This document shows, one piece after another, positions 1,243 to 39,865 of a DNA stretch of 51,156 bases. The notes under the pieces were generated by a model that was not told where the DNA came from, did not search any database, and saw nothing but the letters and a program-made list of their open reading frames with translations. The first letter of the stretch is position 1. Every line of letters starts with the position of its first letter. The position numbers and the translations under genes are program-made. The DNA lies in the IMG/VR virus record IMGVR_UViG_3300024348_000060, positions 1 through 51,156 of that record; one strand, 5' to 3'. Source of the stretch: a virus.

Positions 1243-1247
1243 AGTTC

Positions 1248-2216: not shown

Positions 2217-2218
2217 TT

Positions 2219-2704: not shown

Positions 2705-2709
2705 TTATT

Positions 2710-3435: not shown

Positions 3436-3437
3436 AA

Positions 3438-4682: not shown

Positions 4683-4704
4683 GGTTTAAAAATTACAAAT
4701 ATCG

Positions 4705-28111: not shown

Positions 28112-28333
28112 ATGATAAAGAAAGAATGGCTGTTCATGCAGACACCAAAAGAGAAGGCAATACAGCTTGTTAAGGTATTTAATGTTGCAGATCATCATCT
28201 CAAAACAAAAGATGCAATGTTGTGTGCTAAAATACACATCAATCTTATACTAGAGAGCGAGATACTAAAACCATCTAACAACCTAGTGATAGAATACTAT
28301 CAAGAAGTACTAAACGAAATAGAAAAGCTATAA
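28112..28333 (+). CDS. PKEKA...CAKIHIN small protein
   Basis: 73 aa with TPKEKAIQLVKVF, CAKIHINLIL and the ending EYYQEVLNEIEKL. The same three blocks appear in the frameshifted copy at 36566-36731, so the accessory array lies between two members of one family. Helical; function unknown. Confidence 0.6.
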   Translation: MIKKEWLFMQTPKEKAIQLVKVFNVADHHLKTKDAMLCAKIHINLILESEILKPSNNLVIEYYQEVLNEIEKL

Positions 28334-28517: not shown

Positions 28518-28612
28518 GCATATAACAACAAAGGCTATAAACTGTAGCCTTATACAAATACAGTTTAATGTAGCACTATGATAGCTATGGTTTTATAGCC
28601 TTTGTTGTAGTG
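28518..28612 (+). repeat. attC-like site 1, no ORF
   Basis: 95 nt. ACAACAAAGGCTATAAA (28525-28541) is an exact 17-bp inverted repeat of TTTATAGCCTTTGTTGT (28592-28608). R'' is GCATATAAC, L'' GGCTAT (28533-28538), L' ATAGCC (28595-28600), R' GTTGTAGTG (28604-28612). Length and layout match a classical attC hairpin. It is the left border of the array. Confidence 0.65.
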
Positions 28613-28629
28613 TGTTAATTAATTAGAAA

Positions 28630-28770
28630 ATGGTACAAATAACATACGAAACAAAAGAACTAGGATTTTGGACAATAATTGCAACTTGGAAAAAAGGACT
28701 AGGTGGATATGTAGATAGCGAAGGTTTCTTGCTTAATGTAGAGGATGCACTTTGGATTGAAAAAGTGTAA
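28630..28770 (+). CDS. Cassette ORF, 46 aa
   Basis: MVQITYETKELGFWTIIATW, a small beta-like protein with Trp/Gly-rich middle (KKGLGGYVDSEGF). Lies wholly between R' (28604) and R'' (28771), the classical place of a cassette gene. Function unknown. Confidence 0.55.
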   Translation: MVQITYETKELGFWTIIATWKKGLGGYVDSEGFLLNVEDALWIEKV

Positions 28771-28907
28771 TGCACTAAAACTGATTTATATAAGAATAGT
28801 AGCCCAGCAAACAGGCAAAAAGTTTGAATAAATAAATTAATAGGTGAGTAATAGCCACAAATAAGACACTGCAACAGGCTATTATTTTTATACGTTGTTG
28901 TAGTGCG
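28771..28907 (+). repeat. attC-like site 2, no ORF
   Basis: R'' TGCACTAAAAC (28771-28781) and R' GTTGTAGTGCG (28897-28907) share GCACTA/TAGTGC. Inside, AATAGCC (28850-28856) pairs with GGCTATT (28877-28883), and TTATATAAG is near-complementary to TTTATAC. About 137 nt without a gene, so this is a real spacer-type site. Confidence 0.55.
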
Positions 28908-28917
28908 TTTTAAAATT

Positions 28918-29169
28918 ATGAAAACAGTTTATAAAATGGCAATAGCCTTTATATTATGTGTAGTTGCAATAACTTACCTTTTAAGTAGTGTAGTAAAAGA
29001 CGTTTCTAAAGAAATTGATAATACAGAAAATAAGTACAAAAAACACATTGGGAAAAAGCACGTAATAGATAAAGACACGTTGACTATAGTTGACTACTCT
29101 ATTTTTAATGAAAACTTTACTTTAAGCGATGGAAGAAAGGTAAGTTATATATTGATAGGCAAGAACTAA
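28918..29169 (+). CDS. Cassette ORF, 83 aa, membrane-anchored or secreted
   Basis: Start chosen at MKTVYKMAIAF (28918), preceded by TTTTAAAATT; the longer start at 28903 would lie inside the R' arm. Residues 5-24 form a hydrophobic segment (MAIAFILCVVAITYLLSS), then a charged domain. Ends at the R'' box 29171. Function unknown. Confidence 0.55.
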   Translation: MKTVYKMAIAFILCVVAITYLLSSVVKDVSKEIDNTENKYKKHIGKKHVIDKDTLTIVDYSIFNENFTLSDGRKVSYILIGKN

Positions 29170-29170
29170 A

Positions 29171-29193
29171 TGTACTAAAACTTAAAAGTGTAT
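29171..29193 (+). repeat. R''-L'' arms of site 3
   Basis: TGTACTAAAAC followed by TTAAAAGTGTAT; the R'' arm is complementary to the R' arm at 28897 (TACTA/TAGTG partly), L'' is the common GTGTAT. A matching L'-R' downstream is not clear: the GTTGGGG at 29258 is a weak candidate, so this site may be decayed. Confidence 0.4.
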
Positions 29194-29294
29194 GAAAAGT
29201 GCGTGTTTAAGAACTGAAATTAGCAAATAAGCACAAAAAATAAACCCTTTTTTAGCGTTGGGGATTAAATGCTATAACTTAAATAAATAGTAAA

Positions 29295-29600
29295 ATGAAT
29301 AAAATGGATTTAGACAGACCAATGCAAGCGGAACAAAAACCTACATTAATGTTGGCTTATGACAGACTTGTTACAAAAGCACGAAAGTTAGAAGAAGTGC
29401 AAGAATTAAGCGAAAGGTTAAACAGAAAGTTTGATAGAACAGACGATAGACCTGTTGCATTAAATGAATCTCTTAAAGAACCAAGAGACGTTGAGCAACC
29501 AAACATTATCGAACTTTTTGATGAAGTAGCAGAAAGGCTTGAATATGCTATAAACAAAATTGGTAAAAATACCGAGCGCGTTATACAAATGATAGAATAA
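29295..29600 (+). CDS. Helical protein, 101 aa
   Basis: MNKMDLDRPMQAEQKPTLM then helices with many Arg/Glu (RLVTKARKLEEVQELSERL) and a C-terminal helix EVAERLEYAINKIGKN. This protein resembles small helical phage proteins. No array box inside; it sits between decayed boxes and the RNA locus. Confidence 0.6.
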   Translation: MNKMDLDRPMQAEQKPTLMLAYDRLVTKARKLEEVQELSERLNRKFDRTDDRPVALNESLKEPRDVEQPNIIELFDEVAERLEYAINKIGKNTERVIQMIE

Positions 29601-29613
29601 AAGCGTTGGCAGA

Positions 29614-29702
29614 AAAAGTAGTTAAACCTAACACATGCAAATAGTATGGTAGTGGGTGCAGGTTAAAGTTGAGTCCATATAACAATATACTTGACTACTT
29701 TT
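29614..29702 (+). ncRNA. Hairpin domain directly before the tRNA
   Basis: AAAAGTAGT (29614-29622) is exactly complementary to ACTACTTTT (29694-29702), 9 bp, closing an 89-nt domain with TTAA-CCT/AGGTTAA inside. It also contains CCTAAC...AGTATGGTAGTG, resembling an R''-L'' arm. It abuts the tRNA by 5 nt and may be part of one long transcript with 29815-30445. Confidence 0.45.
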
Positions 29703-29707
29703 AAAAC

Positions 29708-29802
29708 AGAGAGTTGGCGGAATTGGCTAAACGCTATACCGTAAACGGTTAGAGGCAAAAGGAAATAAGTCCTTCTTACAGGTTCGAATCCTGTACTCTC
29801 TA
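29708..29802 (+). tRNA. Class-II (Leu-type) tRNA with abnormal anticodon arm
   Basis: Acceptor AGAGAGT (29708-29714) pairs with ACTCTCT (29795-29801), D-arm GCG...CGC with AATTGG, variable arm AAGGA/TCCTT, T-arm ACAGG-TTCGAAT-CCTGT, discriminator A29802. By length and D-loop it is like tRNA-Leu. Aligned as usual, the anticodon would be TAA (29742-29744) but position 33 is G and two of five stem pairs fail; an alternative stem ACCG/CGGT with loop TAAA is better. No encoded CCA. Either a degenerate tRNA-Leu(UAA) or a tRNA-like element of the RNA that follows. Confidence 0.65.
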
Positions 29803-29814
29803 CAAATAAAGATT

Positions 29815-30445
29815 AAACTCTTTGCTTGAAGATAAACAGTAAGGTTATAAATTGTTAATGAAGACACGCCATGCTATAACAATATGCTTATAGTCTGACG
29901 ACTTACAAACTACATTTCAGAGTAGTTGTTATTTATTGGAAACAGTCTGCGTACTGTCCACATAAACTGAATAGTGGAGCAAAGAGTTTTTTAAAAAATA
30001 GGTTAAACATTGAATACCTTTGTGAGTAAATAAAGTAAGAAAGCTCGTACTGACTCTTAACTGAGAGGTACATGTATAATAGAAAGCAGGTGAAGCTCCT
30101 GAAATTTATTCACATAAAGATACTAATCCTGAGCACAGGATGTTATAGCTGAAAACCCTTTGGAAACAATGTGGGAAGACGAAACTAAATGAAGGTTTTA
30201 TAATGGAGTAATCCTAGATGTGTTGTTCCCTTGAGAAAGGAATTCTATGGCTGATAAGAGAGTAAGCATTAAAGACTCTACAACACAAATGAGTTCTCAG
30301 CAAGTAGTTATTAATAATAAAGCCTAGAGTCCTGACGGATATATTGAAATCTTTAGGTATAACTACGTGACCCTACTCTTATTAGTAAGACATTAAACAC
30401 ATCCAGGACTGAGGTGCACTGGAGCTAATAAGAAAGAGGGTGCTA
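29815..30445 (+). ncRNA. Large ornate noncoding RNA, GOLLD/ROOL-like candidate
   Basis: No ORF for about 700 nt after the tRNA, yet there are many stems: AAACTCTTTGCT (29815-29826) with AGCAAAGAGTTT (29978-29989), 12 bp; inside CTATAA/TTATAG (29874-29893), AACTAC/GTAGTT (29908-29927), TCCAC/GTGGA (29957-29978); then ATCCTG/CAGGAT (30126-30141, AGCA loop); TGTGTTGT/ACAACACA (30219-30287) with TTCC/GGAA and AGAGT/ACTCT inside; and a 3' pseudoknot in which AGTCCTG (30328-30334)/CAGGACT (30404-30410) interlocks with ACCCT...CTTATTAG (30370-30385)/CTAATAAG...AGGGT (30425-30441). Giant phage RNAs GOLLD and ROOL lie next to tRNAs and look like this; which class, if any, cannot be decided here. Confidence 0.65.
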
Positions 30446-30502
30446 AATAAAGTATGTACTACTATTGCAAATTAAAAGCATTACTTAGCGTACAATCTGG
30501 AT

Positions 30503-30520
30503 GGTTAAGGTTAGTTGCGT
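30503..30520 (+). repeat. L'' box and TTAGTTGCG box after the large RNA
   Basis: GGTTAA (30503-30508) followed by TTAGTTGCGTG. Its partner L' TTAACC (30677-30682) lies in the next ORF, 3 nt before GTTGTAGGG (30686). R'' is degenerate (TACAATC instead of AAC). So the tRNA-RNA locus looks like the content of an array unit. Confidence 0.45.
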
Positions 30521-30550
30521 GAAATATTAATGAATTAAATAAATACAAAA

Positions 30551-30805
30551 ATGAAAGAATTAACAAACTTAGAATTATTAATGGAGTATATGGAACAAAA
30601 CCAATACTTTATAGGAAACGACCTTTTAGCAAAATATAACGAACTTTTGCAAAAAGAAAAGCAAGAGCAATTAACTTTAACCGATGTTGTAGGGCAAAGC
30701 GAACAGTTAGTTTGCCCTGAGTGTAAAAGTACTGATTGCAAAACGGCAATACATACTGACTATAAGGAATGTAACAAGTGTTACCATTATTGGGAGGCAA
30801 GATAA
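30551..30805 (+). CDS. Composite cassette ORF, zinc-ribbon C-terminus
   Basis: 84 aa. Residues 1-45 helical (KELTNLELLMEYMEQNQYF); the code for residues 44-48 is the L'-R' site (TTAACCGATGTTGTAGGG); residues 49-84 carry CPECKSTDC...CNKCYHYW, a zinc ribbon. R'' GCTTACAAC follows the stop. So N- and C-terminal halves lie on different units. The start of the C-terminal part (QSEQLVC) is repeated in 36244-36525. Confidence 0.6.
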   Translation: MKELTNLELLMEYMEQNQYFIGNDLLAKYNELLQKEKQEQLTLTDVVGQSEQLVCPECKSTDCKTAIHTDYKECNKCYHYWEAR

Positions 30806-30807
30806 TT

Positions 30808-30828
30808 GCTTACAACTTAAAAGTGTAT
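30808..30828 (+). repeat. R''-L'' arms GCTTACAAC / GTGTAT
   Basis: TACAAC (30811-30816) complements GTTGTA at 30686; L'' GTGTAT (30823-30828) complements L' ATACAC at 31003-31008 across the next ORF. Confidence 0.55.
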
Positions 30829-30849
30829 GAATTTTAAAAATTACGGATT

Positions 30850-30990
30850 ATGAAAAACAGAATTAAAGAATTAGAACAAAAGATACAAAAGGAAATTTGG
30901 AGAATACAAATGATTGATTACCCAACACCTAACACAAATAATGAATTACATAAAATGCAGAAAGAACTTAAAGAGTTGAAAAGCAAGTGA
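30850..30990 (+). CDS. Cassette ORF, 46-aa helical protein
   Basis: MKNRIKELEQKIQKEIWRIQ, a coiled coil broken by PTPNTNN and resumed with KELKELKSK. Lies between L'' 30823 and L' 31003, that is in the place of the attC spacer. Function unknown. Confidence 0.5.
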   Translation: MKNRIKELEQKIQKEIWRIQMIDYPTPNTNNELHKMQKELKELKSK

Positions 30991-31002
30991 TTTTTATTTT
31001 TT

Positions 31003-31053
31003 ATACACGTTGTTGGCATCATCGTTTTAATGTGTGCCAACTTATTTGTATAT
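31003..31053 (+). repeat. Array junction: L'-R'-short core-R''-L''
   Basis: L' ATACAC, R' GTTGGCA (31012-31018), core ATCGTTTTAATG, R'' TGCCAAC (31035-31041), L'' GTATAT (31048-31053). The R arms form a 7-bp local hairpin; L'' pairs with ATATAC at 31317. The unit between GTT and AAC is only about 30 nt and has no gene. Confidence 0.6.
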
Positions 31054-31090
31054 GAGTAGTAAAATAAAACGGTAAATTAAAAACAGAATT

Positions 31091-31300
31091 ATGAAAAATA
31101 GAGAATACTTTTGGACTATGAAAAATGGCGAAAAAATAAATGTTGATAATATGACAGAAAGCCATTTAAGAAACGTACTTAAACTAATAATTAGAAGAAG
31201 TGAAGAAGTACAAGACACTTGCCCTAAAAATATTGAAGATGCACTTGATATGTCTTGCTACGATAATACGCCATTTTGTGATGATTGGATGTGGAAGTAG
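31091..31300 (+). CDS. Cassette ORF, WTMKxGxxIxVDNMTESHLRN family
   Basis: 69 aa. The first 35 residues (YFWTMKNGEKINVDNMTESH, then LRNVLKLIIRR) are nearly identical to the ORF at 35378-35542, then the sequences diverge to CPKNIEDALDMSCYDN here. Paralogues in two separate units. The conserved part looks like a small beta-helix domain; function unknown. Confidence 0.6.
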   Translation: MKNREYFWTMKNGEKINVDNMTESHLRNVLKLIIRRSEEVQDTCPKNIEDALDMSCYDNTPFCDDWMWK

Positions 31301-31316
31301 TTTTATTTTATTACTT

Positions 31317-31367
31317 ATATACGTTGTTGTATGTCTTTTTTAATTACTTACAACTGAGAATGGCTAT
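31317..31367 (+). repeat. Array junction with tiny unit
   Basis: L' ATATAC (31317-31322), R' GTTGTATG (31326-31333), core TCTTTTTTAATT, R'' ACTTACAAC (31346-31354), L'' GGCTAT (31362-31367). L'' pairs with ATAGCC at 31463. The same core recurs at 33220, 34230 and 35249. Confidence 0.6.
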
Positions 31368-31462
31368 GGGTAGTGCCATCAAACTACCTTAACTTTAAAA
31401 ATATAACTATGTATTTAGGAATAGATGAACTTAGTGATATAACAGAGTTTTAGGCATTACTT

Positions 31463-31598
31463 ATAGCCTATGTTATTGTTAGTATGGTGCGATTGAAAGG
31501 GATAATGTTTCAGCAATTACCTTAGTAAATTATAGATGGTCGCTGAACGTAATGGATAGGCATCTAGCACCATATTAACTCTAACTTACCGCAGATAA
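31463..31598 (+). repeat. ORF-less unit holding a hairpin element
   Basis: L' ATAGCC (31463-31468), R' GTTATTG (31472), then GTTAGTATGGTGC (31478-31490) complementary to GCACCATATTAAC (31567-31579) with one mismatch; TTCAGC/GCTGAA lies inside. The unit ends with CTCTAAC and L'' AGATAA (31593-31598), which pairs with TTATCT at 31765. Upstream, a 14-codon ORF (31408-31452) fills the spacer. The content may be a small RNA instead of a protein gene. Confidence 0.45.
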
Positions 31599-31632
31599 GG
31601 ATTGATTTTTAACAAATAAATAAAACAAAATA

Positions 31633-31890
31633 ATGATTAAAGAATTAGAAAATAAAATAGGGCAACTGCAATACGAAATTAGTTTGCTAGGACTTGACCA
31701 AGAAGATTTAACAGGTGTAACTATAAGAACAGATGAATTAAAAGACCTTGTTAAAAATTTATCTTTATCTAGTGTTAGCCAACATCGTGAACTGTTAATT
31801 GACTTTAGTAAAAAAATAATGTTTGGTGAAGATTGGACACCACCATTACCATACGAACAGATGGTTGATGACTATTTAAAAGGCAATTAA
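31633..31890 (+). CDS. Composite cassette ORF, SVSQxRELL C-module
   Basis: 85 aa. Residues 1-45 helical; the L'-R' site codes SLSSVSQ (TTATCT, AGTGTTAGCC); the C-terminal 40 residues SQHRELLIDFSKKI...YEQMVDDYLK are the same type as in 32731-33000 and 34276-34479, which have different N-termini. R'' GGCTAAC follows the stop by 4 nt. Function unknown. Confidence 0.6.
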   Translation: MIKELENKIGQLQYEISLLGLDQEDLTGVTIRTDELKDLVKNLSLSSVSQHRELLIDFSKKIMFGEDWTPPLPYEQMVDDYLKGN

Positions 31891-31894
31891 TTGT

Positions 31895-32028
31895 GGCTAA
31901 CTTAAAAGTGTATGATTAGTAGCGTTTAAGTACGCAAAAACATTGAGTAAGTAAATACATTAATTAACAAGTAATAGCCTTATAAATTGCACCTGAATAG
32001 CTATTATTTTTATACATTGTTAGGGTGC
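31895..32028 (+). repeat. attC-like site, no ORF
   Basis: R'' GGCTAAC (31895-31901, complementary to GTTAGCC at 31774), L'' GTGTAT (31908-31913), TTAGTAGCG, GCGTTTAAGTACGC hairpin, AGTAATAGCC/GGCTATTA-like pair, L' ATACA (32012-32016), R' GTTAGGGTGC (32019-32028). About 134 nt; closely alike to site 28771-28907. Confidence 0.6.
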
Positions 32029-32038
32029 GTTATTGATT

Positions 32039-32293
32039 ATGAAAGAAAAAATATTAAAAGAAATAGCAAAAGAAGTAAAAGAAAATGGTGGTTCAAATAG
32101 TTATGATACTTGGGGTAACACAGAACGGTCTAAAAAATATAAAGACTTAAAATTTCACTTAATAGACCAAAATAAAAACGCATTTAAAGTTGATGACGAA
32201 ATATTTGTAATTGTATTTAGACACTCTAACGGAATTACTGCTATGAATGGTACTCCTGACAGTATTTCAGTTAAAAAGTTGAGGCTGCTTTAA
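32039..32293 (+). CDS. Cassette ORF, 84 aa
   Basis: MKEKILKEIAKEVKENGG, Lys/Glu-rich helix then beta strands (NAFKVDDEIFVIVFRHSNG). Start taken at 32039, not the TTG at 32033. It lies fully between R' GTTAGGGTGC and R'' GCACCCTAAC, a classical cassette with a 10-bp arm match. Function unknown. Confidence 0.6.
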   Translation: MKEKILKEIAKEVKENGGSNSYDTWGNTERSKKYKDLKFHLIDQNKNAFKVDDEIFVIVFRHSNGITAMNGTPDSISVKKLRLL

Positions 32294-32294
32294 T

Positions 32295-32317
32295 GCACCC
32301 TAACTGTATTTGGGTAT
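32295..32317 (+). repeat. R''-L'' arms GCACCCTAAC / GGGTAT
   Basis: R'' (32295-32304) is the perfect complement of R' at 32019-32028. L'' GGGTAT (32312-32317) is the complement of ATACCC at 32486-32491 within the following ORF. TTAGTGGCGTG follows. One of the best covarying pairs in the array. Confidence 0.65.
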
Positions 32318-32353
32318 GTTTAGTGGCGTGAAATAATAATAAACTTAATAGAT

Positions 32354-32668
32354 ATGAAAGAACAAAGAGATACACCAAGACCGACAATGAGCGATGAAGA
32401 AATGGTTAAAGACTATCCTCGTTTAGCGAGAGAATACACTTTATTACACCAAGATTATAGAGAAGCAATAAGAAAGCCATTAACTATACCCGTTGTTAGC
32501 TTTAGTCTTTTTGACAAGGTTTATATGGATAGCCCTTTTGGAAGATACATAGGTATTGTAAAAGGTGTAGAAGAAAGTAAGGTAATAATAGAAAGTCATA
32601 GCCCAACAGGTAACGGTATGATGTTGGCAGGTTATGATTTAAGCAACAATGATTGGCAAAAATATTAA
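32354..32668 (+). CDS. Composite cassette ORF with C-terminal beta domain
   Basis: 104 aa. Residues 1-44 are a charged helix (MKEQRDTPRPTMSDEEMVKD); ATACCC and GTTAGC code for TIPVVS; residues 50-104 look like a small SH3-type barrel (DKVYMDSPFGRYIGIVKGVE ... KVIIES). GCTAAC (32670-32675) closes the unit with a 6-bp match. Function unknown. Confidence 0.55.
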   Translation: MKEQRDTPRPTMSDEEMVKDYPRLAREYTLLHQDYREAIRKPLTIPVVSFSLFDKVYMDSPFGRYIGIVKGVEESKVIIESHSPTGNGMMLAGYDLSNNDWQKY

Positions 32669-32669
32669 C

Positions 32670-32686
32670 GCTAACGGTTGAGTATA
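32670..32686 (+). repeat. R''-L'' arms GCTAAC / GTATA
   Basis: GCTAAC complements GTTAGC at 32495. L'' GTATA (32682-32686) complements TATAC at 32858-32862 in the next ORF. Confidence 0.5.
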
Positions 32687-32730
32687 AGGAAAGTAATTTT
32701 ACGGATAAATAAACTATAAATTAAAACAAG

Positions 32731-33000
32731 ATGGATTTAAAACACAAATTAAAAGATTTAGTAATGTCTGAATTTGCTTATGACCTAAGTAAATACGAAG
32801 ATGAAGGAGAGGCAAAAGTTAATAATGTAACAGGGAACTTATTAAAATTATTTTCTTTATACATTGTTAGCCAAGGAACTGAACTGTTGCCTGATTTTTT
32901 ATATAAGGATACTTACGGAACAAAAATAGGTTTTCACGGAGATACAGAAGTTAGCGAAGAATGGAATAATTACCTTAAAAAATTAGGTAATTGTGGCTAA
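32731..33000 (+). CDS. Composite cassette ORF, IVSQxTELL C-module
   Basis: 89 aa. N-terminal helices (MDLKHKLKDLVMSEFAYDLS), then SLYIVSQ encoded by TATACATTGTTAGCC, then a C-module like those of 31633-31890 and 34276-34479 but with a GTKIGFHGDTEVSEEW insert. The stop codon overlaps the R'' box GGCTAAC (32995-33001). Confidence 0.55.
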   Translation: MDLKHKLKDLVMSEFAYDLSKYEDEGEAKVNNVTGNLLKLFSLYIVSQGTELLPDFLYKDTYGTKIGFHGDTEVSEEWNNYLKKLGNCG

Positions 33001-33013
33001 CTTTAAAGTATAT
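32995..33013 (+). repeat. R''-L'' arms GGCTAAC / GTATAT
   Basis: GGCTAAC pairs with GTTAGCC at 32866-32872; GTATAT (33008-33013) pairs with ATATAC at 33203-33208 across the next ORF. Confidence 0.55.
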
Positions 33014-33053
33014 GAAACGAACGAATTAATAACAAAACTTAATAAATAAAACA

Positions 33054-33194
33054 ATGAACATAGCTATTTTAATATCAATTATTCTTGTAATAATAAATCA
33101 ATTTATTTTAAGCAAGAACCAAAGTACAATAACAGGCAACCAAAAGAAAATAGCGGAAACGCTTGATGAAATTAATAAAGAAGTACATAGGTAG
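33054..33194 (+). CDS. Cassette ORF, 46-aa membrane protein
   Basis: Hydrophobic N-terminus (NIAILISIILVIINQFIL), then a polar helix (NQKKIAETLDEINKE). Lies between L'' and L', in the spacer position. Function unknown. Confidence 0.5.
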   Translation: MNIAILISIILVIINQFILSKNQSTITGNQKKIAETLDEINKEVHR

Positions 33195-33202
33195 TTTGTT
33201 TT

Positions 33203-33251
33203 ATATACATTGTTGTATGTTTTTTTAATTGCATACAACTTAAAAGTGTAT
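33203..33251 (+). repeat. Array junction with tiny unit
   Basis: L' ATATAC (33203-33208), R' GTTGTATG (33212-33219), core TTTTTTTAATT, R'' GCATACAAC (33231-33239; 8-bp match), L'' GTGTAT (33246-33251), then TTAGTAGCGG. L'' pairs with ATACAC at 33419. Confidence 0.6.
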
Positions 33252-33288
33252 GATTAGTAGCGGAAAAATTAACAATAAATTTATAAAA

Positions 33289-33525
33289 ATGGAAGAAATA
33301 ATTAACGGACTTAAACAAATAAAAACAAGAGTTGATAGTGGAACAATAACCACTGTAAACGGAACAGAAACTTTATTATCTAAACAGCTTGCAAGTATGC
33401 TTGAAAAAGCTATTAATTATACACGTTGTTGTGAGGAGTTCTTTTGCGAATATGAGGATTTAGAATATTCTTCCAAAAAATGCAAGGAACAATGTGATGG
33501 TTGTAAATGGATTGAAAACCTTTAG
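33289..33525 (+). CDS. Composite cassette ORF, INYTRCC type
   Basis: 78 aa from the ATG at 33289 (MEEIINGLKQIKTRVDSG); a longer start at 33250 lies in the L'' box. Residues around 45-50 (INYTRCC) are the L'-R' site ATACAC/GTTGTG; the C-terminus has four Cys (KKCKEQCDGCKW), perhaps a zinc site. The same INYTRCC join occurs in 34759-35013 with an unrelated C-terminus. Confidence 0.55.
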   Translation: MEEIINGLKQIKTRVDSGTITTVNGTETLLSKQLASMLEKAINYTRCCEEFFCEYEDLEYSSKKCKEQCDGCKWIENL

Positions 33526-33536
33526 CAAAATAATTA

Positions 33537-33675
33537 CTACCAACTTAAAATGATAAACGCAGTACCGTAATGCTCCGCACTTATGAAAGAGAGTCGACAG
33601 CAGAATATAAGTGCTAGCTTTGCCACTAACGGAATAGCTGTTTTAGCGGTATTGTCGTTTATCTATTGTTGTAAA
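33537..33675 (+). repeat. attC-like long hairpin, no ORF
   Basis: GATAAACG (33552-33559) pairs with CGTTTATC (33656-33663), continued by CAGTACCG with CGGTATTG; GCACTTAT/ATAAGTGC forms an inner 8-bp stem. It ends in R' GTTGTAAA (33668-33675). About 139 nt of near full-length fold, like a VCR-type attC. R'' CTACCAAC is weak. Confidence 0.6.
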
Positions 33676-33745
33676 GTCGTTTTAATGTTTTACAACGGAA
33701 GCAGACATAAAAACGTTTTTAATGTTTTATGTGTGCTGTTGTAAG
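33668..33745 (+). repeat. Tiny unit followed by a 58-nt attC-like hairpin
   Basis: R' GTTGTAAA with R'' TTTACAAC (33689-33696), core GTCGTTTTAATG. Then AGCAGACATAAAA pairs with TTTTATGTGTGCT around TTTTTAATG, ending in R' GTTGTAAG (33738-33745). The smallest site of the array. Confidence 0.6.
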
Positions 33746-33776
33746 TAGTACGGAATATTAACTAAAATTAAATAAA

Positions 33777-33971
33777 ATGACTAATAAAATACAAGAATTA
33801 AAAACCGCTTTACAAAATGAACTTAAAAAAGAATTAAGCAATGAAACAGTAAAAGTAACACTTACTTTGAATAGTTATGGTTTTTATACACAGATAGAAG
33901 AAAGGACAGCCGAAAGTCTTAAAACTGACAATGTAAGTATGCGAAACCTTAATGGTAAATGGATAAAGTAG
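33777..33971 (+). CDS. Cassette ORF, 64 aa
   Basis: MTNKIQELKTALQNELKKEL, a helix, followed by a beta part (VKVTLTLNSYGFYTQIEERT). Entirely between R' GTTGTAAG and R'' CTTACAAC (33977-33984; 8-bp match): a classical cassette. Function unknown. Confidence 0.6.
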   Translation: MTNKIQELKTALQNELKKELSNETVKVTLTLNSYGFYTQIEERTAESLKTDNVSMRNLNGKWIK

Positions 33972-33976
33972 TATTA

Positions 33977-33996
33977 CTTACAACGTATTTGGGTAT
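33977..33996 (+). repeat. R''-L'' arms CTTACAAC / GGGTAT
   Basis: R'' pairs perfectly with GTTGTAAG (33738). L'' GGGTAT (33991-33996) versus L' ATAGCC (34213-34218) has one mismatch, so this pair is weaker. GAATAGTGCG follows. Confidence 0.5.
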
Positions 33997-34032
33997 GAAT
34001 AGTGCGATTTAATAACTAAAAAATATAATATT

Positions 34033-34203
34033 ATGGGATATGTACCTTATGGAAACGAATGGAAAGCGATGTTAAAAAGACATTCTTTTAAGCAATTATT
34101 TGAAATGTTTGGAATTGAACGCGAAAAAGAAAATAAAGAAGATTACATTCTAAAAATTAGAGAAGAATTGCTTTTTAGGAGAGCGAATTTAACCGAGAAC
34201 TAA
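34033..34203 (+). CDS. Cassette ORF, 56 aa
   Basis: MGYVPYGNEWKAMLKRHSFK, then a charged helix. Lies in the L''-L' interval. Not recognised. Confidence 0.5.
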   Translation: MGYVPYGNEWKAMLKRHSFKQLFEMFGIEREKENKEDYILKIREELLFRRANLTEN

Positions 34204-34212
34204 GCATTATTT

Positions 34213-34264
34213 ATAGCCTTTGTTATGTGCTTTTTTAATTGCATCATAACTTAAACAGATAAAA
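34213..34264 (+). repeat. Array junction with tiny unit
   Basis: L' ATAGCC, R' GTTATGTGC (34222-34230), core TTTTTTAATT, R'' GCATCATAAC (34241-34250; GTTATG/CATAAC), L'' AGATAAA (34258-34264), which faces TTTAT at 34358-34362. Confidence 0.5.
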
Positions 34265-34275
34265 CAAGTAACGAT

Positions 34276-34479
34276 ATGAAAGATAAAATTAATGAAATTT
34301 GCAATAAATTAAATAGAGAGCAATTAAGTGTTTATGGTGCTACTAATGAGTTATTTGATTTATACAGTGTTAGCCAACAACGTGAACTGTTAGAGGGGTT
34401 TGTAGATTGGTTTAATATTAACGATAAAACACAAGCTATATTAAGTGAGCGAATAGAGGAATATTTAAAAACCCTCTAA
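34276..34479 (+). CDS. Composite cassette ORF, SVSQQRELL C-module
   Basis: 67 aa. N-terminal helix (MKDKINEICNKLNREQLS), LYSVSQ coded by the site TATACAGTGTTAGCC, then RELLEGFVDWFNIND and ERIEEYLKTL. The C-module aligns with 31633-31890 and 32731-33000. R'' GGCTAAC (34484-34490) matches GTTAGCC (34369-34375). Confidence 0.6.
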   Translation: MKDKINEICNKLNREQLSVYGATNELFDLYSVSQQRELLEGFVDWFNINDKTQAILSERIEEYLKTL

Positions 34480-34483
34480 TTGT

Positions 34484-34501
34484 GGCTAACGGTTTGGCTA
34501 T
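34484..34501 (+). repeat. R''-L'' arms GGCTAAC / GGCTAT
   Basis: R'' pairs with GTTAGCC at 34369; L'' GGCTAT (34496-34501) pairs with ATAGCC at 34667-34672 across the next ORF. Confidence 0.6.
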
Positions 34502-34526
34502 GGATAGATTTTTAACGATTAAGAAA

Positions 34527-34670
34527 ATGAAACAATATTTAGAACTACTAAAGAACGCATTTGCTTTAAATAGTATAATGGCAATATTTGACGATGATGC
34601 TCATAGAATAGTAAGCAAAAGAGGTGAAGCTATTTTAAAAGATAAGGGCAAGTTAAAAAATTATTTATAG
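34527..34670 (+). CDS. Cassette ORF, 47 aa
   Basis: Start at MKQYLELLKNAF (34527) after AAGAAA; the open frame could begin at GTG 34482 but that overlaps the R''/L'' boxes. Helical with IMAIFDDDAHRIVSKRGE. The stop lies inside the L' box. Function unknown. Confidence 0.45.
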   Translation: MKQYLELLKNAFALNSIMAIFDDDAHRIVSKRGEAILKDKGKLKNYL

Positions 34671-34714
34671 CCTTTGTTGTGTTCTCGTTTTAATGTTTTA
34701 CAACGGTTAGTGTA
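34667..34714 (+). repeat. Array junction with tiny unit
   Basis: L' ATAGCC (34667-34672), R' GTTGTG (34676-34681), core CTCGTTTTAATG, R'' TTTTACAAC (34696-34704), L'' GTGTA (34710-34714), then TTAGTAGCGTG. L'' pairs with TACAC at 34890. Confidence 0.55.
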
Positions 34715-34758
34715 AGATTAGTAGCGTGAAAAATTAACAGAATTAAATAGATAAAACA

Positions 34759-35013
34759 ATGAACAAAAGAGCAAGAAAACATTTAGAAATGGCATTAGGT
34801 GGAAATATGAATATAGCAACTTTAAAACCATTAGCCTTAATTGAGATAATGATAGACTTTGCAAAAAAAGAAGTATCGGCTATTAATTATACACGTTGTT
34901 GTAAAAGCGATAGCGAACTGTTAAAGGTTTTAGGCGAACACATAGCTGAACAATTTGACCATAAGGCAGAAGATGTTATTGAACAATTAGAATGGAAATT
35001 TAAAAACCTTTAA
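34759..35013 (+). CDS. Composite cassette ORF, INYTRCC type
   Basis: 84 aa. N-terminal helices (RARKHLEMALGGNMNIATLK), the junction INYTRCC from TATACACGTTGTTGT, and a C-terminal helix (ELLKVLGEHIAEQF). R' GTTGTAAA (34898) and R'' TTTACAAC (35017) match over 8 bp. Function unknown. Confidence 0.55.
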   Translation: MNKRARKHLEMALGGNMNIATLKPLALIEIMIDFAKKEVSAINYTRCCKSDSELLKVLGEHIAEQFDHKAEDVIEQLEWKFKNL

Positions 35014-35016
35014 TTG

Positions 35017-35037
35017 TTTACAACGAGTTACGGCTAT
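35017..35037 (+). repeat. R''-L'' arms TTTACAAC / GGCTAT
   Basis: R'' matches GTTGTAAA at 34898-34905. L'' GGCTAT (35032-35037) only partly matches the next L' (TATAGG at 35231), four base pairs. GAGTAG follows. Confidence 0.5.
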
Positions 35038-35060
35038 GAGTAGAAAATAAAACGGATAAA

Positions 35061-35216
35061 ATGAAAGATATAAAAAACAAGTTAGAGAATTACAAAGAAG
35101 AACTGAGTAGACAAAAAGCCGCAAGACTAAAGAAAGGTGATACCACTAAAGGAAAGCACATTAGAAAGTTAGAGGCAAAGGTTAAACTATATCAAGGCTT
35201 TTTAAACGCTGAGTAG
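35061..35216 (+). CDS. Cassette ORF, 51-aa basic helical protein
   Basis: MKDIKNKLENYKEELSRQKA, coiled-coil-like with a basic loop (RLKKGDTTKGKHIRK). In the L''-L' interval. Function unknown. Confidence 0.5.
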   Translation: MKDIKNKLENYKEELSRQKAARLKKGDTTKGKHIRKLEAKVKLYQGFLNAE

Positions 35217-35231
35217 TTTTATTTATTACTT

Positions 35232-35281
35232 ATAGGTGTTGTTGTATGTCTTTTTTAATTTCATACAACGAACGAGTATAT
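35232..35281 (+). repeat. Array junction with tiny unit
   Basis: R' GTTGTATG (35241-35248), core TCTTTTTTAATT, R'' CATACAAC (35262-35269; 8-bp match), L'' GTATAT (35276-35281). The following spacer has TAAGCC/GGCTTA (around 35291 and 35332), a further inner stem. Confidence 0.55.
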
Positions 35282-35377
35282 GGTTTTGTAAGCCGTAGCA
35301 GAAATTTACTATTAAAAACGAATATTAATTGGCTTATAAACTATATATAGTGTTATATGCTTTTAAACTTAAAAACT

Positions 35378-35542
35378 ATGAAATACTATTGGACGATGAA
35401 AGACGGTAAAAAAATAGATGTAGATAATATGACTGAATCACATTTAAGAAACGTCTTAAAAATGATACTAAGAAACCAAAAAGAAAGAATAGAGGCTGAA
35501 ATGACAGAAGCTTCATTTAATGAATACAACCTTTGGAAGTAA
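35378..35542 (+). CDS. Cassette ORF, WTMKDGKKIDVDNMTESHLRN family
   Basis: 54 aa from the ATG at 35378; an upstream ATG at 35357 lies in the R' arm. Same conserved start as 31091-31300, different end (RIEAEMTEASFNEYNLWK). R' GTTATATGC (35352-35360) and R'' GCATATAAC (35545-35553) are perfect 9-bp complements around it, a classical cassette. Confidence 0.6.
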   Translation: MKYYWTMKDGKKIDVDNMTESHLRNVLKMILRNQKERIEAEMTEASFNEYNLWK

Positions 35543-35544
35543 TT

Positions 35545-35678
35545 GCATATAACGTGTTTGTATATGATATGTTGCGTATAAGTAAGCGTAAAAATTGAGT
35601 AAGTAAAAGAGTAAATAAATAACAATTAACCTTTAATGTTAGACATAACAGCAATAGATTATATACGTTGTTATGCAC
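35545..35678 (+). repeat. attC-like site, no ORF
   Basis: R'' GCATATAAC, L'' GTATAT (35560-35565), GATATGTTGCG, about 95 nt of A/T-rich spacer, L' ATATAC (35661-35666), R' GTTATGCAC (35670-35678). Confidence 0.6.
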
Positions 35679-35688
35679 TGTAAAAATT

Positions 35689-35826
35689 ATGTATTATAGA
35701 GAAAAAATTATAGATGGTGTATATTATTGTAAACACACACCAAAAGGAGAATGGACCGCGTTAAGTAACAAAGTGTTAACAAGCAAGATTATAGCTTTAC
35801 AAAAGTTAGTAGATGAAGCGTATTAA
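35689..35826 (+). CDS. Cassette ORF, 45 aa
   Basis: MYYREKIIDGVYYCKHTPKG, beta-like with a C-terminal helix (IIALQKLVDEAY). Between R' GTTATGCAC and R'' GTGCCTAAC (35840-35848; 8 of 9 match). Classical cassette position. Function unknown. Confidence 0.55.
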   Translation: MYYREKIIDGVYYCKHTPKGEWTALSNKVLTSKIIALQKLVDEAY

Positions 35827-35839
35827 AATAATTTTTATT

Positions 35840-35862
35840 GTGCCTAACGGAATGCAGATAAA
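35840..35862 (+). repeat. R''-L'' arms GTGCCTAAC / GATAAA
   Basis: Pairs with GTTATGCAC at 35670 except one base. L'' GATAAA (35857-35862) faces TTTAT (36024-36028). TTAGTTGCGG follows. Confidence 0.5.
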
Positions 35863-35904
35863 ATTAGTTGCGGTGAATTATAAACAGAATTAAATAAAAA
35901 GACA

Positions 35905-36183
35905 ATGAACATACAAGACAAAATGCAAGAAATACACCATAAATACGGTGTTACAGAAAAAGCCAATTATGAAATACAATTATTTGTAGAAACCTTATTA
36001 AAAGAGCAGAAAGAGCAATTAAGTTTATGTGGTGTTGGCATTAGTGCCTATCTAATGGATATTGACAATGAAGCGACAATTGTAGTAGCTAATAATATAT
36101 CTGATGCCTTGGATAAAGCGCATAATGTGGCAGAAAAAGACTATGAAATGACTTACTCTAAAAGTTTACCTGTATTGCATTAA
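35905..36183 (+). CDS. Composite cassette ORF, 92 aa
   Basis: N-terminal helices (MNIQDKMQEIHHKYGVTEKA), junction LSLCGVGISA from TTTATGTGGTGTTGGCATTA, then a C-module ISAYLMDIDNEATIVVANNI with EKDYEMTYSKS. R' GTTGGCATTA (36034-36043) and R'' TAATGCCAAC (36181-36190) match over 10 bp and the stop codon is inside R''. Function unknown. Confidence 0.6.
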   Translation: MNIQDKMQEIHHKYGVTEKANYEIQLFVETLLKEQKEQLSLCGVGISAYLMDIDNEATIVVANNISDALDKAHNVAEKDYEMTYSKSLPVLH

Positions 36184-36205
36184 TGCCAACTTAAACGTAT
36201 AACAT
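36181..36205 (+). repeat. R''-L'' arms TAATGCCAAC / GTATAACAT
   Basis: R'' as above. L'' GTATAACAT (36197-36205) is the perfect complement of ATGTTATAC (36395-36403), nine base pairs across 190 nt of coding sequence. The best L-pair of the array. Confidence 0.65.
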
Positions 36206-36243
36206 TAGTCTTTTTAACGGATTTAACACTAAAACTTTATAAA

Positions 36244-36525
36244 ATGGAAATGAGCGAACAACAGATAAAAGCAATGGTAATAATGAATATTATTGATAAT
36301 TGCACAATGGAACTTGACAATACAGGACAAGAGCGATACTGTTTGAATGGGCAACAATTTGGCAAATGTGTAGATGCATTAGTTAAAAATATTAATGTTA
36401 TACATTGTTGTATGGGCGAAGCCGAACAGTTGGTTTGCGATAATAAATGCGAATGGACAAGATACCCTAAAAATGGTATTTGGTATGATGGATGTGTAAA
36501 ATGTGGAAAAGAAGTAGCAGACTAA
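36244..36525 (+). CDS. Composite cassette ORF with Cys-rich C-terminus
   Basis: 93 aa. Helical N-part (MEMSEQQIKAMVIMNIID), junction INVIHCC from ATGTTATACATTGTTGTATG, then AEQLVCDNKCEW...DGCVKCGKE, a zinc-ribbon-like end related at its start (QLVC) to 30551-30805. Last complete ORF of the array. Function unknown. Confidence 0.6.
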   Translation: MEMSEQQIKAMVIMNIIDNCTMELDNTGQERYCLNGQQFGKCVDALVKNINVIHCCMGEAEQLVCDNKCEWTRYPKNGIWYDGCVKCGKEVAD

Positions 36526-36527
36526 TT

Positions 36528-36548
36528 GCATACAACACCGTATAACAT
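36528..36548 (+). repeat. Right-end R''-L'' arms of the array
   Basis: GCATACAAC (36528-36536) complements GTTGTATG at 36407-36414. L'' GTATAACAT (36540-36548) repeats that of the previous unit, but no L'-R' follows before the next genes, so this marks the right border. Confidence 0.55.
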
Positions 36549-36565
36549 CAACTAATAAATAAACT

Positions 36566-36731
36566 ATGACACCAAAAGATAAAGCAAAAGAGTTAGTAGA
36601 AAAAATGTTAGGAGACAACAGCTAAACAATGTGCATTAATTTGTGTAGATGAGATAGTGAAAAATACTTTGCAAGTTTCACAAGTCTTGGATTATTGGCA
36701 AGAAGTTAAACAAGAAATAGAAAAGCTATGA
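36566..36731 (+). pseudogene. Frameshifted PKDKA...CALICVDE small gene
   Basis: The frame from ATG 36566 (MTPKDKAKELVEKMLGDNS) stops at TAA 36623-36625 after 19 codons. Moving one base gives TTAKQCALICVDEIVKNT and the ending YWQEVKQEIEKL up to TGA 36731. Together they match 28112-28333 and the usual layout of this family, so one extra base near 36617-36620 breaks it. A programmed frameshift is not excluded, but no slippery run is seen. Confidence 0.6.
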
Positions 36732-36838: not shown

Positions 36839-37141
36839 ATGGATTATTTTGAATTAGAGTGTGCAGTAGAACTATGGGCTGAAGAAAAAGAGATATTTGA
36901 CAAAGCTACACCAATGGCACAAGCATTGAAGACATTAGAAGAGACAACAGAACTCTGTACAGCTATCAATAAGAACGATAGACCAGAGATAATAGATGCA
37001 ATGGGTGATATAATGGTAACATTGATTATCCAAGCTCACATGCAAGATATAAGCCTTGAGCAATGTCTTGAATCAGCTTATAATGTAATCAATAAGCGTA
37101 CAGGTAAAATGATTGATGGACAATTTGTAAAAGATGAATAA
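36839..37141 (+). CDS. MazG-like nucleotide pyrophosphohydrolase
   Basis: 100 aa all-alpha NTP-PPase: EETTE at 34-38, E50 to D53 and D57 (EIIDAMGD), the E-E-x-x-E plus E-x-x-D metal-binding pattern. It would hydrolyse nucleoside triphosphates to monophosphates, for example to clean up dUTP or alarmone-like nucleotides during infection. Single-domain length fits phage MazG forms. Stop overlaps the next start (TAATG). Confidence 0.8.
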   Translation: MDYFELECAVELWAEEKEIFDKATPMAQALKTLEETTELCTAINKNDRPEIIDAMGDIMVTLIIQAHMQDISLEQCLESAYNVINKRTGKMIDGQFVKDE

Positions 37142-37938
37142 TGGTAACATTTATTATTTCTATAAAGCACTACGATAATTCTCATTGTTATGAGAACACT
37201 TGGAAGCTACTAGAGAACACATTAGATTCTATAAATAACCAAAGCGATAGTGACTACAACATTATTGTTGTTAGTAATAAAACTTTGAGAGATTATCCAG
37301 GTGTTAATTTTATAGAATTAGATTGGGAAGCACCAACAATTGATGATTGGCAGATAAGTGATGAAACTGTTGACAAGGCTAACTGTGTTCAAATGAATAA
37401 TATAAGATTAGATAGAGGAACTAAGCATGTGATGGCTCTTAGAGAAGCTAGACAAATGACTAATGATGATCACTTTGTAATGTTTGTTGATGGGGATGAT
37501 TTCATTCACAAAGATGTAGCATTGTTTGCTAACAATAACTTACATGCTGACATGATCAGAGTGTACAATGGTATTAAACTAGGTGTAGACAATACATATA
37601 AATTCAGAGATAGATTTAACTACATATGTGGAACCTGTAACATTATAAAGATTAATGCAATAGCAGACCCTATTAACTTTGGAATCATACAAAATGATAC
37701 TCAGGAAGAAGTTTTAAAAAGTGTTGATGATTATTATTTGAAAATGATATTAGGTTCTCATAAGTTTATGTATAAACATTTTGTAGAATATAATGAATTA
37801 ATAGGAGTGGATATACCCTTTCCTGCAGCTGTTTATAATTGTTCACATAATGAGCAACATTCTGGACAAGTTGATGAGGTTCATTCATCAAAATTAACAA
37901 ACGAACAAATTAAAAACTTTAATATAAAATATATATGA
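37141..37938 (+). CDS. GT-A-fold glycosyltransferase
   Basis: 265 aa. Nucleotide-sugar fold at the start (VTFIISIKHYDN, NIIVVSNK), DGDD at 117-120 as the metal-binding DxD, and a C-terminal part with DIPFPAAVYNCSHNEQHSGQ. Donor and acceptor unknown. First of four glycan-related genes (37141-39865) transcribed together; likely modifies host surface polysaccharide or virion glycans. Confidence 0.8.
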   Translation: MVTFIISIKHYDNSHCYENTWKLLENTLDSINNQSDSDYNIIVVSNKTLRDYPGVNFIELDWEAPTIDDWQISDETVDKANCVQMNNIRLDRGTKHVMALREARQMTNDDHFVMFVDGDDFIHKDVALFANNNLHADMIRVYNGIKLGVDNTYKFRDRFNYICGTCNIIKINAIADPINFGIIQNDTQEEVLKSVDDYYLKMILGSHKFMYKHFVEYNELIGVDIPFPAAVYNCSHNEQHSGQVDEVHSSKLTNEQIKNFNIKYI

Positions 37939-37998: not shown

Positions 37999-38580
37999 AT
38001 GATAAATCACGAACATAAGTTTCTGTTTCTACACTTACCAAAAACAGGAGGTACATCTATCAATAAGTTTTTTAATGATAAGTTTGATAACAATGAACGT
38101 GACTTTGGTCATCCTTATTTATCAGACTATAAATGTAATAACTTTGATGATTACTTCAAGTTTACAGTAGTTAGAAATCCATATGATAGGTTAGTTAGTG
38201 CATTCTTCTACATGAAAGAATACTCTAATTTTCAATCTGATATTAATTTTAGAAAGAAATGGAAATTAGAACATGACACGTTTGAATCTTTTGTTATAGA
38301 AAAACTTCCTATCATAGTAGGTAATAAGAATACTAGACCTAGACACTTTAAACCACAAGTAGAGTTTGGTACAACTGGTTTAGATTACATAGGAAGCTTT
38401 CTTACTATGCAGGATGATATGAACTTCATATGTGATAAGATAGGTATTGAGAGTCAAGATTTACCACATGTAAACTCATCTAATCACAAGAGATACGATG
38501 AGTATTACAATAAAGAACTATTAGATATAGTTGAAACACTTTACATTAACGATTTCAATAACTACAATCACTTATTCTAA
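37999..38580 (+). CDS. Sulfotransferase-family protein 1
   Basis: 193 aa. PKTGGTSI at 14-21 is the 5'-phosphosulfate loop for PAPS and VRNPYDRLVSAFF near 58-70 the 3'-phosphate loop. Family: carbohydrate sulfotransferase-type (sulfotransferase family 2). It would transfer sulfate to a glycan. The gene ends as the next begins. A sulfate donor (PAPS) must come from the host. Confidence 0.85.
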   Translation: MINHEHKFLFLHLPKTGGTSINKFFNDKFDNNERDFGHPYLSDYKCNNFDDYFKFTVVRNPYDRLVSAFFYMKEYSNFQSDINFRKKWKLEHDTFESFVIEKLPIIVGNKNTRPRHFKPQVEFGTTGLDYIGSFLTMQDDMNFICDKIGIESQDLPHVNSSNHKRYDEYYNKELLDIVETLYINDFNNYNHLF

Positions 38581-39242
38581 TGAAGATATTTTATATAAAC
38601 TTACAAGAAAGAACTGATAGAAAAGAGTACATGGAAAAGATGCTCACTGATCTAAATTTAGAATACGAACGTTTTGATGCTGTTAGAGTTTCTCCTGAGA
38701 TAATCAAAAGTAAATATAAGTCATTCTACGATAATTGTGTTCCCAGATTTAAGAAGTATATAAATAGTAAAGATGAAGGTGTTATAAAAAGAGGTATTGG
38801 TGCATTTGGTTGTTACATGTCACACATAAAGATTCATCAACTTATGGAAAAAGAAAATAGTTCTCCATACATAATACTAGAAGATGATGTTATTATAACA
38901 CAATCTACACTAGATGAACTATATATGCTGATGACTGAACTAAAAGATGATTGGGACATAATACGAAGTACTTGGTATTCTATTGATAAACTAAATAAGA
39001 TGAAGGGTGTTAATTTTGAATCAAAATTTGCTAAAAATAGTAGCTACGTACATCATGGATATGGAGGAACTCATTTTACAGTGTTTAACGATGCTAAAAG
39101 AATAATGAGTTACTTATTAAATGAACATTTATTTAGTATAGATGCTGTGTATTGTACAGATCATTTAAATGTTTATCAAAGAAAATTAGACGTAAATATT
39201 TACCCATTTAAATCAGACATACCAAAAAACGAAGAATCATGA
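38580..39242 (+). CDS. GT25-family glycosyltransferase
   Basis: 220 aa. INLQERTDRKEYM at 6-18, GCYMSHIKIHQ near 77-87 and ILEDDVI near 99-105, the signature of the LPS-biosynthesis GT25 family. It overlaps its neighbours by 1 and 4 nt. Likely adds a hexose to a surface glycan together with 37141-37938. Confidence 0.85.
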   Translation: MKIFYINLQERTDRKEYMEKMLTDLNLEYERFDAVRVSPEIIKSKYKSFYDNCVPRFKKYINSKDEGVIKRGIGAFGCYMSHIKIHQLMEKENSSPYIILEDDVIITQSTLDELYMLMTELKDDWDIIRSTWYSIDKLNKMKGVNFESKFAKNSSYVHHGYGGTHFTVFNDAKRIMSYLLNEHLFSIDAVYCTDHLNVYQRKLDVNIYPFKSDIPKNEES

Positions 39243-39865
39243 TAAACCATAAGTACAAATACATTTACACAAAAGTTGCTAAAGCAGGAAGTACATCAAT
39301 ACAAAAAATGCTTAAGGAAAATAGTGATGAAAAAGATTTAAGTCACTTAGGTCATTGGCATTTAGCAGATGATATAGATGAAGATACTAAAAACTATTTT
39401 AAGTTTACATTTGTTAGGAATCCATGGGATAGAGCTGTTTCTTATTACCATTACAAAAAAAAGACAGAAAAACAAAACAATAAGATATCATACTTTACTA
39501 AGTTCACATTTGAACAATTTCTATTAGAACCACATAGGTTTATAAAAGAATACAATTGGGCAGAAAATAGTCCACATTTAGAAAAGCTAGTCAAAGAAGT
39601 ACATTGGTATGATAACCAAATAGATTGGTTAGTAAATGACAAAGGAGTACCATTAGTAGACTATGTAGGTAAGTTAGAAAACTTAAATAAAGAGTTTCCT
39701 ATGATATGTAATAGACTAGGTATGCCTAATGTACCAGTTAAGCATGTGAATAAATCAAGTCACAAACACTACACTAAGTACTATACTAGTAATGAGATGA
39801 TTGAGGCTGTTGAAAAACTATGGGCAAGAGACATTGCATTATATAATTACAAGTACGGAGAATGA
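39239..39865 (+). CDS. Sulfotransferase-family protein 2
   Basis: 208 aa. KAGSTSI at 15-21 and VRNPWDRAVSYY at 59-70; related to 37999-38580 but only distantly. It begins with MINHKYKYIYTKVAK, as the first one begins MINHEHKFLFLHLPK, so they are likely old duplicates. Same proposed role in glycan sulfation. Confidence 0.85.
   Translation: MINHKYKYIYTKVAKAGSTSIQKMLKENSDEKDLSHLGHWHLADDIDEDTKNYFKFTFVRNPWDRAVSYYHYKKKTEKQNNKISYFTKFTFEQFLLEPHRFIKEYNWAENSPHLEKLVKEVHWYDNQIDWLVNDKGVPLVDYVGKLENLNKEFPMICNRLGMPNVPVKHVNKSSHKHYTKYYTSNEMIEAVEKLWARDIALYNYKYGE

Follow-up and report, generated by a model that had tools for sequence, protein, structure and literature searches.

How does a row of integron-type recombination sites come to lie in a phage genome where no integrase gene is found, and what could move its cassettes? 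The question is raised by positions 28518-36536 of the virus record IMGVR_UViG_3300024348_000060, a linear record of 51,156 bases that was analyzed at full length and is referred to here as the window. The record is probably an incomplete virus fragment, and no integrase was found in its 51 kb, in agreement with a preliminary description made from the sequence alone. As that description also held, the open reading frames (ORFs) of the array are small and lie on the + strand; the attC top strand, in turn, is the minus strand. The array is a cluster of attC sites lacking an integrase (CALIN), with approximately 20 cassettes. We consider it highly likely that it represents a mobile cassette array of the integron kind in a crAss-like phage, most likely shuffled by the integron recombinase of the host.

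The array was delimited from the covariation of short arms together with sites found by position-weight matrices. Within units, R' pairs with R'', as at 32019/32295-32304 (10 bp), 35352/35545-35553 (9 bp), and 36034/36181-36190 (10 bp), and the summed contiguous pairing over 16 units reaches 117 compared with 70 ± 6.8 for shuffled partners (0/20,000 permutations). Between units, L'' pairs with the following L', with a sum of 84 over 15 pairs compared with 67.6 ± 3.5 (0/20,000 permutations), and for 13 units this pairing (71) exceeds that with the L' of the same unit (49). For example, L'' GGGTAT (32312) complements L' ATACCC (32486), unlike the ATACAT of its own unit. Because the arms were chosen by eye and by motif before permutation, these tests address partner specificity rather than site choice. 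A generic motif-free attC detector, which returned 15 candidates versus 6.9 ± 3.0 in shuffled sequences, was rejected as too loose, and its weaker excess indicates that the signal lies in partner matching and not in the number of inverted repeats. attC sites have just this arm layout, R' pairing with R'' inside a unit and L'' with L' one unit further on: the R'' and R' boxes carry AAC and GTT, their variable bases match within one cassette, and the inner L''/L' arms pair inside the same attC. Both sets of covarying arms had been proposed in the preliminary description, whose listed pairs lie where it placed them and which named randomization as a check; permuted arms indeed pair less well. Its count of about 25 units was slightly generous, as 15-16 are clean and several others degenerate, and the stretch 29240-30530, which holds a tRNA gene and a structured region, is not a normal unit.

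Arm covariation by itself fits exchange at either the labelled R' or the labelled R'', and the exchange point was located from cassettes that differ between phages. A search with patterns derived from the array recovered 25 viral loci and 16 bacterial loci, the latter all from Flavobacteriaceae or Bacteroidia; a narrower DNA pattern reached no bacterial genome, and a looser one yielded the 16 bacterial loci. The viral arrays have cassette-sized blocks of 80-330 bases in common, with edges at AAC (L108/L112, L111/L113, L117/L118, and window 30826-31041/L118, the last at 98% identity). The 327-base cassette common to L108 and L112 is 99.7% identical over 329 aligned bases, with unrelated flanks and AAC at both edges. 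The 31 matches between viral arrays have 62 ends, and for 13 of these an AAC is found no more than 3 bases away in both sequences, compared with 0.81 expected and a maximum of 5 in 2,000 random shifts, whereas the labelled G|TT, where the preliminary description had placed the exchange, accounts for 2 of the 62 and was rejected. Two insertions with AAC edges, of 1,094 and 914 bases, distinguish the lytic Polaribacter sister phages P12002L and P12002S, whose compared blocks are 99.2-99.9% identical. The 914-base insertion is a cassette with a methyltransferase gene, the second P12002 insert has an 88% homologue elsewhere in the P12002L array, and the junction reads GCAGGTAAC|GTTTGG in P12002L and GCAGGTAAC|GTACTTG...GTTGCTAAC|GTTTGG in P12002S. 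Since a + strand AAC reads GTT on the opposite strand, these breaks correspond to the canonical G^TT exchange with the minus strand as attC top strand, and ORFs that span the labelled G|TT are then whole within single cassettes. Cassettes are thus gained, lost, and exchanged at G^TT in related phage arrays, as the preliminary description had anticipated, but on the other strand.

Exchange at the minus-strand G^TT places the window ORFs opposite to the canonical cassette orientation. The gene lies on the labelled + strand, inverted relative to attC, in 68 of 72 phage cassettes, and on the labelled minus strand, the canonical orientation, in 66 of 69 chromosomal cassettes of Flavobacteriaceae. 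The phage cassettes do not show the co-direction of gene and attC top strand that is usual, but not strictly defining, for CALINs, and many window cassettes hold the ORF between L'' and L', i.e., inside the attC. Measured from R'' to R', almost all Flavobacteriaceae sites span 115-122 bases (median 119). When folded as single strands, 63 of 68 bacterial sites (Wilcoxon p = 2e-12) and 12 of 13 window sites form the better structure on the labelled + strand, as expected for the attC bottom strand, which in CALINs folds better than the top strand. The original assignment of these sequences, as attC-type sites that make up a cassette array, is supported by the weaker pairing of permuted arms and by the units gained and lost in related phages.

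The bacterial loci led to 15 genomes, each of which encodes tyrosine recombinases whose alignment to the IntI model falls into two segments and skips the middle: profile positions ~180-238 of TIGR02249 are unmatched, and in G013 only 18 residues (54 bases) separate the matched parts. The best curated family for these host recombinases is NF040815 (recomb_XerA_Arch; 225 and 222 bits, cut-off 220), while their scores to TIGR02249 IntI, 200 and 207 bits, stay under its cut-off of 265; the nearest solved structures are XerA proteins (PDB 4a8e, 5hxy), followed by IntI4. The host recombinases lack the additional domain that is specific to IntI and lies around patch III; PMC9668308 describes this domain as defining and necessary. 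In several genomes the array lies 3' of the recombinase gene. The sequence 3' of the stop codon reads ...GTT, and in 6 of 8 genomes 9-10 of the next 10 bases agree with R' of the first cassette, which identifies the sequence as an attI with the first cassette behind it, so that both attI and cassette array are adjacent to the recombinase gene. Across 200 sampled Flavobacteriaceae genomes, the attC motif TTATAYACGTTGTTR occurs in 99 (439 matches, versus ~10 for a reversed control pattern) and a strong relative of the recombinase (A1; E <= 1e-100) in 97. Motif and recombinase co-occur above expectation (Fisher p = 2e-8), with genome size as a confounder, and in at least 13 genomes (G137, G200, G230, G051, G097, G182, G076, G176, G140, G114, G154, G129, and G212) the motif lies within ~15 kb 3' of the recombinase gene, on the opposite strand. 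Flavobacteriaceae chromosomes hold complete integrons with a XerA-like recombinase that lacks the IntI-specific domain.

In G178 (C2:492520-493341) and G221 (C4:196315-197400), lower-scoring relatives of the recombinase have attC motifs nearby, with gene and motif oriented the other way relative to each other, as in classical divergent integrons. Recombinase genes are often found at contig ends (G004, G006, G007, G012, G015, and others), as if repetitive arrays had broken the assemblies.

When 24 viral records with arrays, among them the complete Tenacibaculum phage JQ, were searched with the recombinase alignment, no member was found; many of these records are fragments, and the viral search had no positive control of its own, although 126 of 200 bacteria gave the gene with that alignment. 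Searches by tblastn with the recombinase returned no match in P12002L or the window and a single weak 78-residue match in phage JQ (E = 0.002), probably due to chance. In E. coli, IntI1 recombined the P12002L site attC2 with attI1; the bottom strand was active, and the top strand yielded no clones (PMC9892861). The simplest reading, and the most likely one, is that a host enzyme acts on the phage sites. In this reading, a cassette extends from just after one labelled R'' AAC to the next AAC and contains one small + strand gene, the attC hairpin forms best on the window + strand (the attC bottom strand), and exchange occurs at the minus-strand G^TT. Shuffling would most likely take place during infection, through the chromosomal XerA-like tyrosine recombinase whose gene adjoins similar attC arrays in Flavobacteriaceae and that would work on single-stranded DNA; the small cassette genes would presumably benefit the phage. 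We also lean, with less assurance, towards a wider proposal in which Flavobacteriaceae possess a distinct integron class with a XerA-like recombinase, and in which phages keep their own pool of mini-cassettes, whose genes are inverted and in many cases lie within the attC, and pass these from phage to phage via the host enzyme.

Several observations weigh against a cassette array shuffled by the host. The window's own sites served to train the position-weight matrices, and some sites are ~200 bases long and may fold poorly. For the window phage itself, comparison showed only that the array as a whole is there or missing, and recombination was not observed; its near relatives lack the array rather than carry a different one, and cassette turnover is shown in other phages only. 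Finally, the window cassettes gave only two weak matches in 399 Flavobacteriaceae genomes, which leaves no sign there of direct exchange between phage arrays and those of hosts. Host genomes as a direct source of the window cassettes were rejected on this basis, and the phage cassettes look like a separate pool.

Cassettes might instead be swapped by homologous or annealing recombination between short conserved repeats, with no site-specific recombinase. The window encodes a Sak4-like annealing protein (46672-47340), and the conserved boxes supply a few bases of junction homology, such as TAACGT at a P12002 junction. Annealing would, however, be expected to prefer the longer and better conserved L'R' box TATACACGTTGTTG, at which hardly any edges fall (2), whereas 13 fall at the AAC of the shorter labelled R'' box, and arm covariation is maintained per cassette, as hairpin recognition would require; we regard annealing as an unlikely explanation. 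Arm covariation alone is also compatible with cassettes bounded at the labelled G|TT, their ORFs being split by and fused across the exchange point, but common cassettes and indels break at the labelled AAC, and several ORFs span the labelled G|TT, which makes such bounds extremely improbable. We attach equally little credence to a role of the paired arms at the RNA level only, as terminator or processing hairpins between the small genes, with no recombination involved. Hairpins of R' and R'' with 12-15-base loops do lie between several ORFs, but L'' pairs with an L' ~200 bases onward, across an ORF, the cassettes move as units between phages, and the same sites adjoin a recombinase and attI in bacteria. 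As a sole explanation, RNA hairpins are refuted by cassette exchange, while a secondary role in RNA is possible.

The carrier was described at the outset as crAss-like, and matches to its structural and replication proteins uphold this. Window proteins match profiles of the portal (phrog_6547, 322 bits), major capsid protein (phrog_11589, 133 bits), large terminase subunit (TerL; phrog_6681, 246 bits), and DNA polymerase (phrog_1252, 470 bits), all four being related to those of the Crassvirales. The window TerL shares 31% identity with the isolated Cellulophaga phages phi4:1 and phi17:2, 27% with the uncultured gut phages cr118 and cr130, and 39% with one Leptolyngbya phage record; the Pfam family PF03237 was unsuitable as a test of viral origin, as it misses even this TerL. 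By protein similarity the carrier is a crAss-like phage; its hosts are presumably marine bacteria, probably Flavobacteriaceae.

The relative L002, 93-98% identical to the window over most of its length, lacks the array at the syntenic site and fuses window position 28331 straight to 36712, with one shared repeat GAAATAGAAAAGCTAT at the join. In the window this direct repeat flanks the inserted segment, with its left copy at 28316-28331 and its right copy at 36714-36729. Two flanking genes are spaced 9.2 kb apart in the window, 2.4 kb in L005, 2.3 kb in L006, and 1.0 kb in L002; no site cluster was found between them in L005 and L006, and none of 80 loci fetched by polymerase similarity holds a comparable one. 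On this synteny, the array appears as a variable insertion within the window's phage group, either gained by the window phage or lost by L002, L005, and L006, since the direct repeat also permits loss. The right insertion edge (36566-36730) holds a broken paralogue of the left-edge gene (28112-28333), and the pair may mark the point of insertion or loss. Genes at 37141-37938 and 38006-39865 are likewise missing from L002, and the window phage thus has variable insertions besides the array.

Within the array, features other than the first site lie on the + strand. The first attC-type site (28518-28612, minus strand) is short and without an ORF, its L'' GGCTATA (28533) pairing with the L' TATAGCC before R' (28604). 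It is followed by cassette ORFs of 46 aa (28631-28771, identified from sequence) and 83 aa (28918-29169, with an N-terminal membrane segment) and, in an irregular stretch, by an ORF of 101 aa (29295-29600). The tRNA gene at 29708-29803 was found by ARAGORN and Rfam (RF00005); ARAGORN gives the anticodon AAA (Phe), and its 96 bases and long variable arm look more like the Leu/Ser type. The adjoining stretch 29990-30520, probably non-coding, matches no Rfam family and is not unusually stable (folding z = -1.4); within it, 30197-30453 is conserved, with 69% identity to positions 3110-3367 of the Crassvirales member Cellulophaga phage phi14:2. A cassette ORF of 84 aa (30551-30805) precedes two whole cassettes, delimited AAC to AAC, at 30817-31041, which contains the block found in L118, and 31042-31354 (ORF 31091-31300), of which 31046-31330 is 82% identical to the viral locus L121. 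A further cassette ORF (31633-31890) spans the labelled G|TT at 31774. Whole cassettes follow at 31902-32304 (ORF 32039-32293, between R' 32019 and R'' 32304), 32305-32675 (ORF 32354-32668, spanning the labelled G|TT at 32495), 32676-33001 (ORF 32731-33000, spanning that at 32866), and 33002-33239 (a short ORF of 46 aa), then at 34491-34704 (from arm covariation), 34705-35024 (ORF 34759-35013, spanning that at 34898), 35025-35269 (ORF 35061-35216), and 35270-35553 (ORF 35357-35542). The middle part of an attC at 35560-35691 matches positions 3830-3960 of Tenacibaculum phage JQ at 90% identity from L'' onward, and the last whole cassette occupies 36191-36536 (ORF 36244-36525). Comparison of the window cassette proteins with Pfam and PHROGs gave no convincing function.

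Arrays of like kind occur in other phage records. The isolated Tenacibaculum phage JQ (L001) has one at 413-4700 that includes DNA methyltransferase genes. Record G018 (65 kb; L170-L171) encodes a portal of the same family as the window (phrog_6547, 479 bits) and a small array. Record G024 (71 kb; L163-L166) has arrays at both contig ends (0.4-12.6 kb and 65.5-71.1 kb), which suggests a single ~18 kb array in a circularly permuted phage genome.

CALINs in phages are already known, having been reported in the virulent Polaribacter phage P12002L, Tetrasphaera phage TJE1, and Pseudoalteromonas phage PH101 (Qi et al. 2023, PMC9892861). These are likewise attC clusters without an integrase, and the P12002L sites are of the same kind as those of the window. 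That report names no crAss-like phage, and its detailed TJE1 array has 3 attC sites compared with ~20 in the window; inverted gene orientation, cassette sharing between phages, and the P12002L/P12002S indels are absent from it. The R''/L''/L'/R' architecture, the G^TT boundary, and better bottom-strand folding are common to IntI integrons (class 1, Vibrio superintegrons), in which attI also adjoins the recombinase gene, as in the Flavobacteriaceae version. Unlike in IntI integrons, the Flavobacteriaceae recombinase is XerA-like and without the IntI-specific domain, its gene is mostly co-directional with the cassettes at the array start, and genes in the phage arrays run opposite to the attC orientation. 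XerA-type tyrosine recombinases (the best family match and best solved relatives of the host enzyme) are described as chromosome dimer resolvases in archaea (PMC8371274); unlike archaeal XerA, the Flavobacteriaceae gene adjoins an attI and a cassette array. Integrons have been recorded in Bacteroidota (PMC8618304), and IntegronFinder 2.0 reported little besides Salinibacter in complete Bacteroidetes genomes, where integrons were rare (PMC9024848). No paper on Flavobacteriaceae integrons with such a recombinase was found in the open-licence literature, which proves little. The inverted phage cassette genes and the Flavobacteriaceae integrons with a XerA-like recombinase lacking the IntI-specific domain both look new.

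The host side of these findings may explain why integrons were reported as rare in Bacteroidetes despite an attC motif in half of the 200 sampled Flavobacteriaceae genomes. As integron activity has been tied to the IntI-specific domain, the host recombinases, which lack it, offer a test of how much of IntI is required for the use of folded attC sites. If phage genes are indeed shuffled by host integrons, lytic phages with no recombinase of their own could replace accessory genes singly, and small genes could thereby change rapidly in a phage group that is very abundant.

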